Part shown: one piece after another, positions 7,343 to 11,170 of the stretch | Layout of the letters: each line of letters opens with the position of its first letter | Position numbering within the stretch: position 1 is the stretch's first letter | Origin: Marinagarivorans sp. UBA5868 | GTDB taxonomy: Bacteria > Pseudomonadota > Gammaproteobacteria > Pseudomonadales > Cellvibrionaceae | Assembly: GCA_002432095.1 (NCBI GenBank) | Contig: DJFQ01000132.1 | Coordinates: forward strand, 10,369 to 21,538 | Direction of reading: 5' to 3' | DNA: 11,170 nt | The notes under the pieces: model-generated | What the model was told of the DNA's origin: nothing | Seen by the model: the letters and a program-made list of their open reading frames with translations, nothing else | Database searches by the model: none | Translations under genes and position numbers: made by a program

Positions 7343-7343
7343 A

Positions 7344-7373
7344 CTCGCAGGGTACCAACTCGCAGGGGACCAA
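7344..7373 (+). repeat. 15-bp tandem repeat that duplicates the ribosome binding site
   Basis: ctcgcagggtaccaa (7344-7358) is followed directly by ctcgcaggggaccaa (7359-7373), with one mismatch. The second copy carries the AGGGG ribosome binding site (7364-7368), six bases before the ATG at 7375. The first copy carries a second purine-rich AGGG at the matching place. Confidence 0.65.
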
Positions 7374-7374
7374 A

Positions 7375-9309
7375 ATGAAAAAAACTGACGGTACTGCCCG
7401 CCAATTGGGCTGTGGCTGTGTTTTTTTATTCGCATCTGCTTCCACGTCGGCGGCTGCTCCGGCGGAAGATTTTCTGGCATTGAGTTTTGAGGAATTATTG
7501 CGGGTAAAAGTCAGCTCAGTTGCCAAGCGAGACCAAGAGCTACAGGATGCAGCAGCCTCCATTTATGTCATCACTCGGGATGCCATCCGCAATTCTGGGG
7601 CAACCACCATTCCCGAGGCGCTTCGTTTAGATCCACGTTTACAGGTTTCGCGGATAACCGGCACACAATACGCCGTCGGCATACGCGGGTTCACCACCGA
7701 TACAAACAATAAACTGTTGGTGCTTATCGATGGCCGCACCGTTTATACGCCGTTGTATTCCGGCGTTTTCTGGGATCACCAGGATCTTATTCTCGACGAT
7801 ATTGATCGAATCGAAGTGATCAGCGGACCTGGCTCCACTTTATGGGGCACTAATGCTGTTAACGGGGTAATCAATATCATTACTCGTGACACGTCGGCGA
7901 CTACGGGTTTACACACCAGCGCCCACGGCGGCAATTCCGAGCGCGGTACCCAGGCCCGTTATGGCGCTTCCCTTGGTGAATACGGCCATTTCCGCTTTTA
8001 TGGCAAATACATCGAATTCGACACGCACAAACGTACGACTGGCGCATCGGCAGATGACGGAGCACAGCGTGGTCAAGTTGGTTTTCGCACCGACTGGAAC
8101 TGGGGCCAAGATCGCCTGACGGTGATGGGCGATATTTATCATGGAACTGGAGATGACCGGGGCATTTTTAGCCATCCGGCGGTGGGGGAGCGGGTTCTGG
8201 GCGACATCGAAGTGGGTGGCAATAATTTGCTGGCTCGTTGGCAACACACGTTTGCCGGCGGCTCCGATTTACGCCTGCAAACTTATTGGGATCATTTCGA
8301 GCGCAAAGAGGCGGTCATCTTTCAACCGAAATCCGACACACGCGATTTTGAACTGCAACACACGTTACCCTTGGGCCGCCACCGATTTCTATGGGGCGGA
8401 GGATACCGCCACTCCCGTGACGAAGTGGATCCGGGGATTGGTGTCTATTTTATTCCCGCCAGTAAAACCCTGGAATGGGCCAATTTATTTGCGATGGGGG
8501 AATTGAGTGTTACCGACTCCCTGGATGCAACGCTGGGGGTAAGGCTGGAACATAACACCTTCACCGGAATGGAATATTTGCCCACCATGCGTTTAGCCTG
8601 GAAACACTCACCGGATAATCTCACATGGATGTCTCTTTCTCGTGCGGTGCGGGCACCATCGCGCTTTGACCGACATGCGCATTATGGCTTGGGTCCAAAT
8701 GGGCCCTGGTTTGTCCAAGGCGGGCCGAATTTTGTCTCGGAAGTCGCAAATGTGGCGGAACTCGGCCACCGTGGCGAGTGGCACGAAACATTCAGCTATT
8801 CGTTCACCACCTATTATCACGATTGGGATCGGCTGCGCAGTGCCACTGCCCCGCCCGTAGAGTATGTAAATCAAATTGAGGGTGATGTTTATGGTTTTGA
8901 GTTTTGGACCAATTTGCAAATCGTACCGCGCTGGCAGCTTTCAGCCGGCGGCGCGAGGCAATATCGTGATTTGCGGTTAAAACCAGGTAGCCAGGATCCC
9001 GTTGGCGTTAATAACGATACCTTATGGAATGACCCGGATTATTACGGTCAAATTCGGTCCACTTTTAAAATTACCGACAAACAGGTGCTGCAGGTTTCCG
9101 CCCGCTACATGGGCGAACTGATCAATCAACTTGTGCCTTCCTATACATCAATAGATGTCCATTACGCTTATCAATTGCATCCCACTCTCCGCTTGTCCGC
9201 CACGGCGGAAAATATCGCTGACCGGGTGCATCATGAGTATGGCAAAGATAAATCTGTCGCCGTCAATTTCGGTCGAGCCGCATGGCTGAGGTTGATATGG
9301 GAACCATGA
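7375..9309 (+). CDS. TonB-dependent outer-membrane receptor
   Basis: This 644-aa protein is a plug-and-barrel receptor that imports, or senses, a ligand using energy from TonB. A signal peptide (residues 1 to about 28, ending SAAA) is followed by LSFEELLRVKVSSVAKR, which contains a likely TonB box (VKVSSVA). The plug domain spans about residues 55-165, with GATTIPEALRLDPRLQVSRI, IRGF, LLVLIDGRTVYTPLYSGVFWD and DIDRIEVISGPGSTLWGTNAVNGVINIIT. The rest is barrel with alternating aromatic strands, ending WLRLIWEP; the final Pro after the usual aromatic end is slightly odd. AGGGG at 7364-7368 supports ATG 7375. The plug sequence resembles the receptor group commonly encoded beside YfiR proteins and kinases. 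The ligand cannot be deduced. The 3' end overlaps the yfiR-like gene. Confidence 0.93.
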   Translation: MKKTDGTARQLGCGCVFLFASASTSAAAPAEDFLALSFEELLRVKVSSVAKRDQELQDAAASIYVITRDAIRNSGATTIPEALRLDPRLQVSRITGTQYAVGIRGFTTDTNNKLLVLIDGRTVYTPLYSGVFWDHQDLILDDIDRIEVISGPGSTLWGTNAVNGVINIITRDTSATTGLHTSAHGGNSERGTQARYGASLGEYGHFRFYGKYIEFDTHKRTTGASADDGAQRGQVGFRTDWNWGQDRLTVMGDIYHGTGDDRGIFSHPAVGERVLGDIEVGGNNLLARWQHTFAGGSDLRLQTYWDHFERKEAVIFQPKSDTRDFELQHTLPLGRHRFLWGGGYRHSRDEVDPGIGVYFIPASKTLEWANLFAMGELSVTDSLDATLGVRLEHNTFTGMEYLPTMRLAWKHSPDNLTWMSLSRAVRAPSRFDRHAHYGLGPNGPWFVQGGPNFVSEVANVAELGHRGEWHETFSYSFTTYYHDWDRLRSATAPPVEYVNQIEGDVYGFEFWTNLQIVPRWQLSAGGARQYRDLRLKPGSQDPVGVNNDTLWNDPDYYGQIRSTFKITDKQVLQVSARYMGELINQLVPSYTSIDVHYAYQLHPTLRLSATAENIADRVHHEYGKDKSVAVNFGRAAWLRLIWEP

Positions 9310-9869
9310 CCGGCGCATCTGTATCAGCAGTGCGTACTGAAAAAGCTTGGAGTATCACGCGCATAACATTGCTAATCGTGCTCCTACTTAGCACCGGGGT
9401 CACTCAGGCCCAAAGTGCCGAGCAGCAAATAAAAGCGGCGTTTCTATACCACTTTTGTTCCTATGTTCAATGGCCTGAACGCGATCCGTCCATCAATCAT
9501 GCCCATGTGACAGTCGGCGTAGCTGGCACATCCAAAGCGATCCGGCTCGTTCGCGAGACCTTGGAAGGTAGATCCAATAAAAAATGCGTGTTCCATGTTC
9601 GAACAATAAAACCAGGAGACGACCTTAGCGATGTACAAATGCTATATATCGCGCAAAAGTCCCGCTTTACGCTGGAGGATTTTCTTGAGCCGCCCAACAC
9701 CCCACCGATACTCACCATTACCGACGGAGAACCGCTTTCCAACAATTCCATGATCAATTTTGTCATTCGCGACGACCATGTGCGATTTGTCATTTCCAAA
9801 TCGAGAGCGAACCAAGCGGGGTTGAAATTAAGTTCAGAATTGCTCGCCGTTGCTCTGCAAGTGAATTAA
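9297..9869 (+). CDS. YfiR-family periplasmic protein (DUF4154)
   Basis: YfiR proteins are periplasmic; the Pseudomonas member represses the diguanylate cyclase YfiN by binding its periplasmic domain. This 190-aa protein has a signal peptide (hydrophobic core about residues 23-35, cleavage probably after Ala38 or Ala41), then the family hallmark EQQIKAAFLYHFCSYVQWP (residues 42-60), VTVGVAG and, near the end, ILTITDGE, MINFVIRDDHVRFVIS and LKLSSELLAVA. It has two cysteines in the mature part, Cys54 and Cys97. Three in-frame starts exist (9282, 9297, 9306). I chose 9297 because GAGG at 9288-9291 is well placed; 9306 makes an ATGA overlap with the receptor stop and is the main alternative. The next gene starts nine bases after its stop. 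Confidence 0.88.
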   Translation: MGTMTGASVSAVRTEKAWSITRITLLIVLLLSTGVTQAQSAEQQIKAAFLYHFCSYVQWPERDPSINHAHVTVGVAGTSKAIRLVRETLEGRSNKKCVFHVRTIKPGDDLSDVQMLYIAQKSRFTLEDFLEPPNTPPILTITDGEPLSNNSMINFVIRDDHVRFVISKSRANQAGLKLSSELLAVALQVN

Positions 9870-9878
9870 GGAATCCGA

Positions 9879-11170
9879 GTGGCGAAAAAATCCATTAAAC
9901 GAAAATTTCTCCTTACCGCCCTCTTTACCACCATCGTGGCGCTTTTCATCGCTTGTAGTGCCATGGTGGTATTCAACCTGCGCGACTATCGGGAGGATGT
10001 GCAGAACGATGTCGCAACACAGGCATTATTGATCAGCCGCGCTGTTACACCGGCTCTGCAATTCCACGACCCCTCCTCGGCGAAAATGTATCTCGAACTT
10101 TTGCGCCACCAGCCTGACATTATTGAAGCAGCCATCTTTGACGAGAGAGGTCAACTGTTCGCCGGTTATCAGCGCAGCGCCAATACGTCGGCGGTAGACT
10201 CAAGCCTCACCGGGCTTGATGGTATCCGAGTACAAAATGATTCATTGGTTTTGCACCAACGCATCGTGGCGGACAATGAAATCGTCGGTACCGTCTTTGT
10301 GCGCATGCAGTACACCCTGATCAAAAAGCTGCTGGGAAACCTGGCCATTGCCGTTAGCTCAATTTTACTGGCGGCACTTGTATCACTGGGAATTTCACTA
10401 TTTTTACACAAAAGTGTGATTGGCCCGATTCTCTCACTCAATGGCGTCGCTCGAAAACTGGCAGAGTCGCGGGACTTTACCTTGCGTGCATCCAAAACCA
10501 GCGATGACGAAATTGGCGATTTGGTGGTTGCATTCAACGATATGCTAGATGAGGTCGCCAAAGGTCGGCACGATCTGGAACATACCAACGAAGCGCTGGA
10601 AAAAGAAGTGGCAGAACGCCGGGAGACGGAAAAAGCCTTAAAAAGATCGGAGGAAAATATATTACAACTCAACGCCGACCTGGAGCGACGAGTGCAAGAT
10701 CGCACCACACAATTAGAGATTGCCAACAAAGAATTGGAATCCTTCAGTTATTCCGTATCCCACGACCTGCGCGCGCCCCTACGAGCTATCGACGGCTTTA
10801 GTCAAGCGCTGGTTGAGGATTACAAAGACATTCTCGATGATACGGGCAAAGACTATCTAAGACGCGTTCGCGCAGCCGCGCAAAAAATGGGTGCACTGAT
10901 TGACGATATGCTGAAATTGGCCAAAGTAAATCGCACGGAAGTAGTGTTAAGCGAAGTCAATCTGTCGGAAATGGTCACAACAATCGTGGACGAACTCAAA
11001 GACGCCGAAGCGGACCGCCAGGTCTCGGTAAAGGTGACCTCGGGCCTCACGGCCTGGTGTGACAACCATCTCATAAAAATTGCGCTTATCAACTTGCTCA
11101 ACAACGCCTGGAAATACACCTCCAAAAATAATGATGCCTGCATCGAATTCGGTATGCGCCTGCATGAAGG
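9879..11170 (+). CDS. Membrane sensor histidine kinase with CHASE8-like sensor and HAMP (3' partial)
   Basis: The frame is open from GTG 9879, with AAGGA at 9867-9872 as ribosome binding site, to the right edge, giving 430 codons. In order: TM1 at about residues 10-32; a periplasmic region of about 115 residues with AVTPALQFHDPSSA, IIEAAIFDERGQLFAGY and EIVGTVFVRM, resembling the CHASE8 sensor of YfiN/DgcN; TM2 at about 152-176; HAMP at about 178-230, starting VIGPILSL and including DDEIGDLVVAFNDML; a coiled coil at about 230-286; HisKA with SYSVSHDLRAPLRAIDGFS, phosphoacceptor His295; and the start of the ATPase domain with the N-box NLLNNAWKYT from residue 405. G boxes and any receiver domain lie beyond the window. 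The output partner is unknown. It is third in the operon after yfiR. Confidence 0.9.
   Translation, partial: MAKKSIKRKFLLTALFTTIVALFIACSAMVVFNLRDYREDVQNDVATQALLISRAVTPALQFHDPSSAKMYLELLRHQPDIIEAAIFDERGQLFAGYQRSANTSAVDSSLTGLDGIRVQNDSLVLHQRIVADNEIVGTVFVRMQYTLIKKLLGNLAIAVSSILLAALVSLGISLFLHKSVIGPILSLNGVARKLAESRDFTLRASKTSDDEIGDLVVAFNDMLDEVAKGRHDLEHTNEALEKEVAERRETEKALKRSEENILQLNADLERRVQDRTTQLEIANKELESFSYSVSHDLRAPLRAIDGFSQALVEDYKDILDDTGKDYLRRVRAAAQKMGALIDDMLKLAKVNRTEVVLSEVNLSEMVTTIVDELKDAEADRQVSVKVTSGLTAWCDNHLIKIALINLLNNAWKYTSKNNDACIEFGMRLHE

Follow-up and report, generated by a model that had tools for sequence, protein, structure and literature searches.

A TonB-dependent receptor, a YfiR protein and a CHASE8 histidine kinase share an operon in Marinagarivorans sp. 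UBA5868 and may form a trans-envelope switch

We analysed a stretch of 11,170 nucleotides (the window) from the 4.2 Mb draft genome of Marinagarivorans sp. UBA5868, contig C53 positions 10369-21538, and found that it ends in the first three genes of a five-gene operon, coding in order for a TonB-dependent receptor, a YfiR-family periplasmic protein, a sensor histidine kinase, a lone receiver and a REC-GGDEF-EAL protein. The operon may be a trans-envelope switch of the YfiBNR type that has the TonB receptor as its input and the histidine kinase as its output, a reading which in our judgement could equally well hold or fail. Its inner half, the pairing of YfiR with the CHASE8 sensor domain of the kinase, is strongly supported at the level of sequence, by homology and by a residue-level test on a contact phenylalanine, and its outer half, the receptor as input, rests on synteny.

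All five genes lie on the forward strand. The receptor (7375..9309; 644 amino acids, from the open reading frame (ORF) list and Pfam) overlaps the YfiR gene (9297..9869) by 13 nt, given an ATG start at 9297, and a gap of 9 nt separates YfiR from the GTG start of the kinase (9879..11170), so that the order, overlap and gap described in an earlier note on this DNA stand. Among the in-frame ATGs of YfiR (9282, 9297 and 9306), 9297 is the likely start and 9306 a possible one: eight of 14 aligned homologues begin with MGTL or MGAL, which corresponds to 9297, the start of the YfiR of Saccharophagus sp. K07 (L007 and P0013, which are one protein) corresponds to 9306, and the others are indecisive. 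The kinase gene extends past the window over an assembly gap, a run of 60 N at 11171-11230 of the longer locus L005 (which shares the numbering of the window up to 11170); the run interrupts the ATPase domain, and its start is the window end. Beyond the gap the frame resumes without a stop (TVKRVISRHGGDIW...), and its stop codon overlaps the ATG of the receiver (L005 11481-11918) by 8 nt, the REC-GGDEF-EAL gene following at L005 11928-13661. The C-terminus of the kinase contains five 21-bp repeats (L005 11331-11435, which is 161-265 bases beyond the end of the window), which encode MHNDQSS-like heptads.

Pfam bears out the domain calls made previously. The receptor consists of a Plug, beginning at residue 56, and a TonB barrel (three Pfam families matched in all), YfiR matches DUF4154 (YfiR/HmsC-like, 7.5e-31), and the kinase carries CHASE8 (2.6e-17; residues 38-141, 9990..10301, forward strand), HAMP and HisKA. 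All three proteins also exceed curated NCBIfam cut-offs, namely those of NF053590 (TOL_0244 family; 738 bits, cut-off 645), NF053591 (TOL_0243 family; 131 bits, cut-off 125) and NF053592 ('sensor histidine kinase, YfiR-like protein-associated'; 230.5 bits, cut-off 194). Judged by their names and consecutive numbers, these entries describe the same gene set, but they form a catalogue whose short descriptions give no mechanism.

Both profile and fold identify the second protein as a true YfiR. At E<=1, the only matches to a profile of 16 YfiRs were six distinct YfiR sequences (4zhu, 5e-22), and a fold search with an AlphaFold2 single-chain model (mean predicted local distance difference test score, pLDDT, 71.7) returned 15 PDB chains at E<=1e-3, all of them YfiR entries with 13-18% identity. 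In Pseudomonas aeruginosa, YfiR is described as contacting YfiN on an AAVVF motif around Phe70, through a partner patch around its own Phe162 (PMC3375315). A phenylalanine of the window YfiR (9786..9788, forward strand) aligns with F162 in the profile alignment to 4zhu.

Scans of the Escherichia coli proteins returned DUF4154 for YfiR, CHASE8 with GGDEF for DgcN and OmpA for YfiB, and the window protein is therefore a kinase that bears the sensor domain of DgcN/YfiN. Phe62 of the kinase (10062..10064, forward strand) is the equivalent of YfiN F70, with TPALQF here against AAVVF in the YfiR-contact motif. This phenylalanine is expected to be kept in CHASE8 domains encoded beside YfiR, because YfiR would bind them, and to be free elsewhere. 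We observed it in 51 of 51 YfiR-linked CHASE8 domains (53 from YfiR loci, less two duplicate stretches), a set from which domains without it could be missed because the search profile was built up from the window kinase using these very loci, against nine of 31 unlinked domains, aligned out of 33 loci that comprise 28 over-cut-off matches not near YfiR and five of the 28 below the cut-off, whose nearness to YfiR is unchecked. Among 129 columns that of the phenylalanine was both the best separating and the most conserved, and the first alanine of the motif (A66) came third. Unlinked domains carried the residue in six of 12 cases in YfiR-bearing genomes and in three of 19 in other genomes; at least one unlinked row with the phenylalanine, L116, appears to be part of an operon of about 7 kb that includes YfiR. 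As a control for shared ancestry, residues were simulated on a tree for which the motif had been left out, with link states fixed and with E. coli DgcN included in the 52 linked rows; none of 5000 simulations reached the difference. At residue level, these comparisons show that the predicted YfiR-contact phenylalanine is selectively retained in YfiR-linked CHASE8 domains. The earlier note had put a histidine kinase in the place of YfiN; the CHASE8 domain shared with DgcN and the conserved contact residue agree with it, and kinase outputs were reported in 2012.

Next, we investigated how often the three genes occur together. In a survey of 274 genomes of the class, 39 contained YfiR, with 72 matches in total. 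Of 76 CHASE8 matches over the cut-off (28 below it were left out of this count), 48 lay within 3 kb of YfiR, including all of the 20 best-scoring ones, and 46 of the 48 followed YfiR directly on the same strand. We then counted neighbours at 73 YfiR sites in 72 loci, drawn from the source genome, the class survey and two loci of K07. The whole trio was present at 26 sites and an adjoining same-strand receptor at 43, and Plug receptors make up about 0.2% of genes in the 39 YfiR-bearing genomes (289 in 129 Mb, assuming one gene per kb); the adjacency of YfiR and receptor is thus more frequent than expected by chance. A receptor without CHASE8 within 900 bp was found upstream of YfiR at nine sites and downstream at eight; three of these 17 sites are at a contig edge, ten have no CHASE8 gene in the stretch read, and four (L043, L085, L090 and L092) have one elsewhere in the cluster. 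Neither partner stands beside YfiR at seven of the 73 sites. That YfiR is found with a receptor but no CHASE8, and with CHASE8 but no receptor, is compatible with an adaptor role of YfiR.

The receptors matching NF053590 are similarly tied to YfiR. In the class, 31 matches exceeded 400 bits (up to four candidates scored per genome, positions matched by eye), all 31 in YfiR-bearing genomes and 25 adjoining YfiR. In a phylum survey of 299 genomes, of which 70 contain YfiR, 56 of 58 family receptors (E<=1e-100) were in YfiR-bearing genomes. On the same strand as a YfiR gene, 31 lay no more than 600 bp from it and 45 no more than 6 kb; of the 23 receptors over the curated cut-off, 20 adjoin YfiR. 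Among 16 loci from outside the class, 14 chosen by receptor match and two by a long YfiR frame, which therefore indicate spread and not frequency, receptor-YfiR-CHASE8 was found in 11; L195 has the order YfiR-receptor-CHASE8, in L208 YfiR precedes the receptor, the L205 sequence breaks off behind YfiR, L193 has YfiR without a receptor and L209 a receptor without YfiR. The earlier note had called for a synteny survey and allowed that the three genes might not be conserved together; since the trio is met again in distant genomes, both within the class and across the phylum, an objection on that ground fails. Within the source genome there are four YfiR loci: that of the window on C53; C196 (receptor-YfiR-CHASE8-kinase-REC); C112 (YfiR-CHASE8-kinase-REC, ending at the contig edge); and C12 (YfiR-CHASE8-GGDEF-EAL).

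The N-terminal part of the receptor is a candidate for the contact with YfiR. Residues 31-51 (EDFLALSFEELLRVKVSSVAK; 7465..7527, forward strand) span the TonB-box position in the hidden Markov model (HMM) alignment. YfiR-linked receptors mostly have an LxxLSLEELLxIxVTSVSK-like segment there, and in many others this is the place of a VVTATR-type TonB box. On three alignment columns, a loose pattern of this segment was present in 34 of 42 YfiR-linked receptors, thus missing from eight, against three of 40 unlinked ones (L163, L186 and L189), and a VTATR-type string in one of 42 against 25 of 40; the 40 unlinked receptors were hand-picked, non-randomly, from the top-scoring part of the Plug list. 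Three receptors that are unlinked by the coordinate rule (L047, L102 and L110) were placed with the linked ones, as they adjoin YfiR, and seven further ones from YfiR loci (six with the pattern) were kept apart from the counts. YfiB is reported to enter the YfiR pocket via hydrophobic residues of its extended N-terminal loop (PMC4887326), and by analogy residues 31-51 may be a YfiR docking site. The receptor genes adjoining YfiR in L047 (G131:C135) and L042 (G034) look split into at least two reading frames.

Based on these observations, the operon can be compared with known systems. With YfiBNR of P. aeruginosa and yfiR-dgcN-yfiB of E. coli it shares the YfiR family, CHASE8 with the contact phenylalanine, HAMP and a tight operon, whereas its sensor has a HisKA histidine kinase output instead of GGDEF, a TonB receptor stands upstream, and the operon has no gene for YfiB, an OmpA-type lipoprotein. 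A YfiB search of the source genome gave 11 OmpA-domain matches, none of which begins before YfiB residue 47 or lies on a contig of the four YfiR loci. Inward signalling by outer-membrane receptors is thought to go mainly via the FecA-type sigma factor route. With FecA-FecR-FecI the operon would share an outer-membrane TonB receptor proposed as signal input, but it differs in having a periplasmic adaptor and a kinase. As the earlier note held, the receptor has no additional N-terminal signalling domain in the Pfam scan, and no sigma or anti-sigma genes occur among the eight window proteins, operon genes and downstream neighbours scanned, which are not every ORF.

In the mechanism that we propose, periplasmic YfiR would hold the kinase in one state by covering a hydrophobic patch around CHASE8 Phe62, the direction of control being taken by analogy from YfiN, for which direct repression by YfiR was proposed in the 2012 study (PMC3375315). 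Occupation of the receptor, or a TonB-driven cycle, would change the availability of YfiR, most likely by the N-terminal periplasmic segment of the receptor binding YfiR as YfiB does, and the kinase would then signal to the adjacent receiver and REC-GGDEF-EAL protein. A broader proposal is that receptors of this family serve as dedicated sensors in a widespread class of signalling from the outer membrane to the cytoplasm that does without a sigma factor, in which the N-terminal segment would dock in the YfiR pocket used by YfiB and ligand binding or TonB pulling would hand YfiR between receptor and CHASE8, thereby driving kinase or c-di-GMP (cyclic di-GMP) outputs; we put this forward tentatively and think it more likely wrong than right.

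Several observations weigh against a receptor-driven switch. The nearest operon with readable surroundings, L007 of Saccharophagus sp. K07 (YfiR 48% identical; closer YfiR proteins, P0002 to P0010, come from metagenomes and are without genomic context), has no receptor, and CHASE8 occurs without an adjoining same-strand receptor in 23 of 49 YfiR-CHASE8 pairs, four of these at a contig edge and four with an opposite-strand receptor in the stretch read. Two genomes without YfiR, G328 and G527, hold a family receptor, and that of G328 retains the N-terminal segment, so the segment is no proof of YfiR binding. On the side of the sensor, an independent-pairs test of the phenylalanine had only two well-supported pairs and thus no power, and a distance correlation, used in place of direct-coupling analysis since about 50 to 60 pairs are too few for it, favoured YfiR-CHASE8 over YfiR-kinase core weakly (difference 0.11, interval -0.04 to 0.25). 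Likewise, no YfiR column clearly split CHASE8-linked from CHASE8-less YfiRs (best p 0.003, over all columns). Of the relay suggested in the earlier note, the inner half gains from homology and the phenylalanine, and the receptor in the role of YfiB loses from the receptor-less operons and the YfiR-less genomes.

The receptor could instead import a ligand that YfiR then binds, altering its grip on the kinase, so that receptor and YfiR never touch. We consider this unlikely, though it is the alternative with most in its favour: the P. aeruginosa YfiR pocket that takes F57 of YfiB is reported to bind vitamin B6 or tryptophan as well (PMC4887326), the receptor has a transporter-like Plug and barrel, receptor-less operons become easier to account for, and the same-family TOL_0244 of Thalassolituus oleivorans is reported to be up sevenfold on n-C28 alkane compared with Tween 80, with uptake proposed (PMC6304351). 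TOL_0244 is also given there as 40.3% similar to OmpS of Alcanivorax dieselolei, an alkane detector and thus, like the receptor proposed here, a TonB receptor reported to sense; by analogy this alkane response may serve as a lead on ligands, and is not evidence for this organism. Against import, the affinity of YfiR for its ligands is reported to be in the ten-millimolar range (PMC4887326), and the periplasm-facing N-terminal segment common to most YfiR-linked receptors suggests a protein contact, although the shared segment could also be explained by common ancestry. Overall, we favour a direct contact between receptor and YfiR over ligand import, if not strongly.

Receptor genes often adjoin regulators that control them, and the receptor could be a target of the YfiR-kinase system, or a nutrient receptor co-transcribed with it, and not its input. 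We regard this as improbable: the L007 operon without a receptor fits it, but at 17 of 73 sites, and in both gene orders, receptors adjoin YfiR with no CHASE8 inside 900 bp, so that the receptor seems to belong with YfiR and not with the kinase, and nearly all family receptors (the 56 of 58 given above) are in YfiR-bearing genomes. Least probable of all, and in our view very much so, is that the operon answers periplasmic copper or the thiol state via YfiR cysteines, with the receptor incidental. Genes for a CopA-type ATPase, for CueR and for a Csp1-like copper-storage protein, the last scoring below its curated cut-off, lie downstream both here (L005 13792-16760) and in L007 (14538-17764), a short cysteine-rich ORF without a family match precedes YfiR in L007 at the receptor's place, and most close YfiR homologues keep a cysteine pair of their own (HFCSYVQW, KKCxFHVR). 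However, CueR and Csp relatives occur at only these two of 72 loci and CopA at a third (L055, 34% identity), the window YfiR (9306-9869, in 187-residue numbering) has no cysteine at the P. aeruginosa disulfide positions, and L007 has lost one cysteine of the subfamily pair. Redox sensing via the P. aeruginosa YfiR cysteines was rejected for the window YfiR, both of those pairs being absent.

Part of the proposed receptor-driven switch is known already. Diverged YfiBNR systems, mostly without YfiB, were described in 2012 as possibly carrying sensor-kinase outputs on a YfiR-YfiN[PAS] core (PMC3375315), and the three protein families are in NCBIfam. The TonB receptor as input of a YfiR module is common in related genomes and, as far as we found, is not described in the literature searched: open-licence PMC articles on YfiR or DUF4154 with TonB gave no description of the receptor-YfiR-kinase gene set, papers naming both YfiR and TonB-dependent draw no connection between them in the passages where these are named, and 'TonB' is absent from the main text of PMC3375315 as available. 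If our proposal is true, there would be a second route, in which a soluble periplasmic protein reports the state of a receptor to c-di-GMP enzymes or kinases. Orphan TonB receptors and CHASE8 sensors would in many cases gain a testable partner, and the phenylalanine rule would predict which CHASE8 proteins respond to YfiR.

Regarding the output, the earlier note had spoken of a phosphorelay; it can be specified further as a receiver and a REC-GGDEF-EAL protein with lost catalytic motifs. In the latter, SDHEF stands for GGDEF, AAI is found at EAL, DNFG stands for DDFG and VAKGVE for VAEGVE; among 28 GGDEF-EAL proteins compared, 21 have GGDEF or GGDEY and 26 have DDFG. The K07 copy (L007 12469-14178), like that of the window operon, has lost the catalytic motifs in both domains, and for this reason the protein probably acts in binding under the control of phosphorylation and not as an enzyme of c-di-GMP turnover. 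Outputs vary between loci: of 60 YfiR-linked CHASE8 proteins, 11 carry GGDEF or EAL themselves, 47 have a kinase core and two have neither, and after the kinase gene of the 47 a GGDEF/EAL gene comes next in 16 cases and does not in 24, and a contig edge intervenes in seven.

The surroundings of the window resemble those of L007, Saccharophagus (Gammaproteobacteria, Pseudomonadota) being the nearest named relative found. L007 keeps YfiR, kinase, receiver and REC-GGDEF-EAL, and CopA and CueR downstream. A second K07 locus, L110, has the full receptor-YfiR-CHASE8-kinase-REC set and resembles C196 of the window genome; a receptor acting in trans on the L007 operon would be a guess.

Elsewhere, YfiR domains occur in two natural fusions with hybrid kinases (L100 3909-6629 and L194 1042-3636), which count in favour of the proposed switch. 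The long YfiR frames of L190, L191, L193 and L195 were rejected as fusions and read as upstream extensions of the frame, coiled coil and membrane helix being judged by eye in these frames and in the fusions. A scan of L005 7100-13900 gave no promoter-like match. Tandem Repeats Finder detected a 15-bp direct repeat (2.1 copies, unit ACTCGCAGGGGACCA; 7343..7373, forward strand) directly before the start codon of the receptor, which is possibly an operator.

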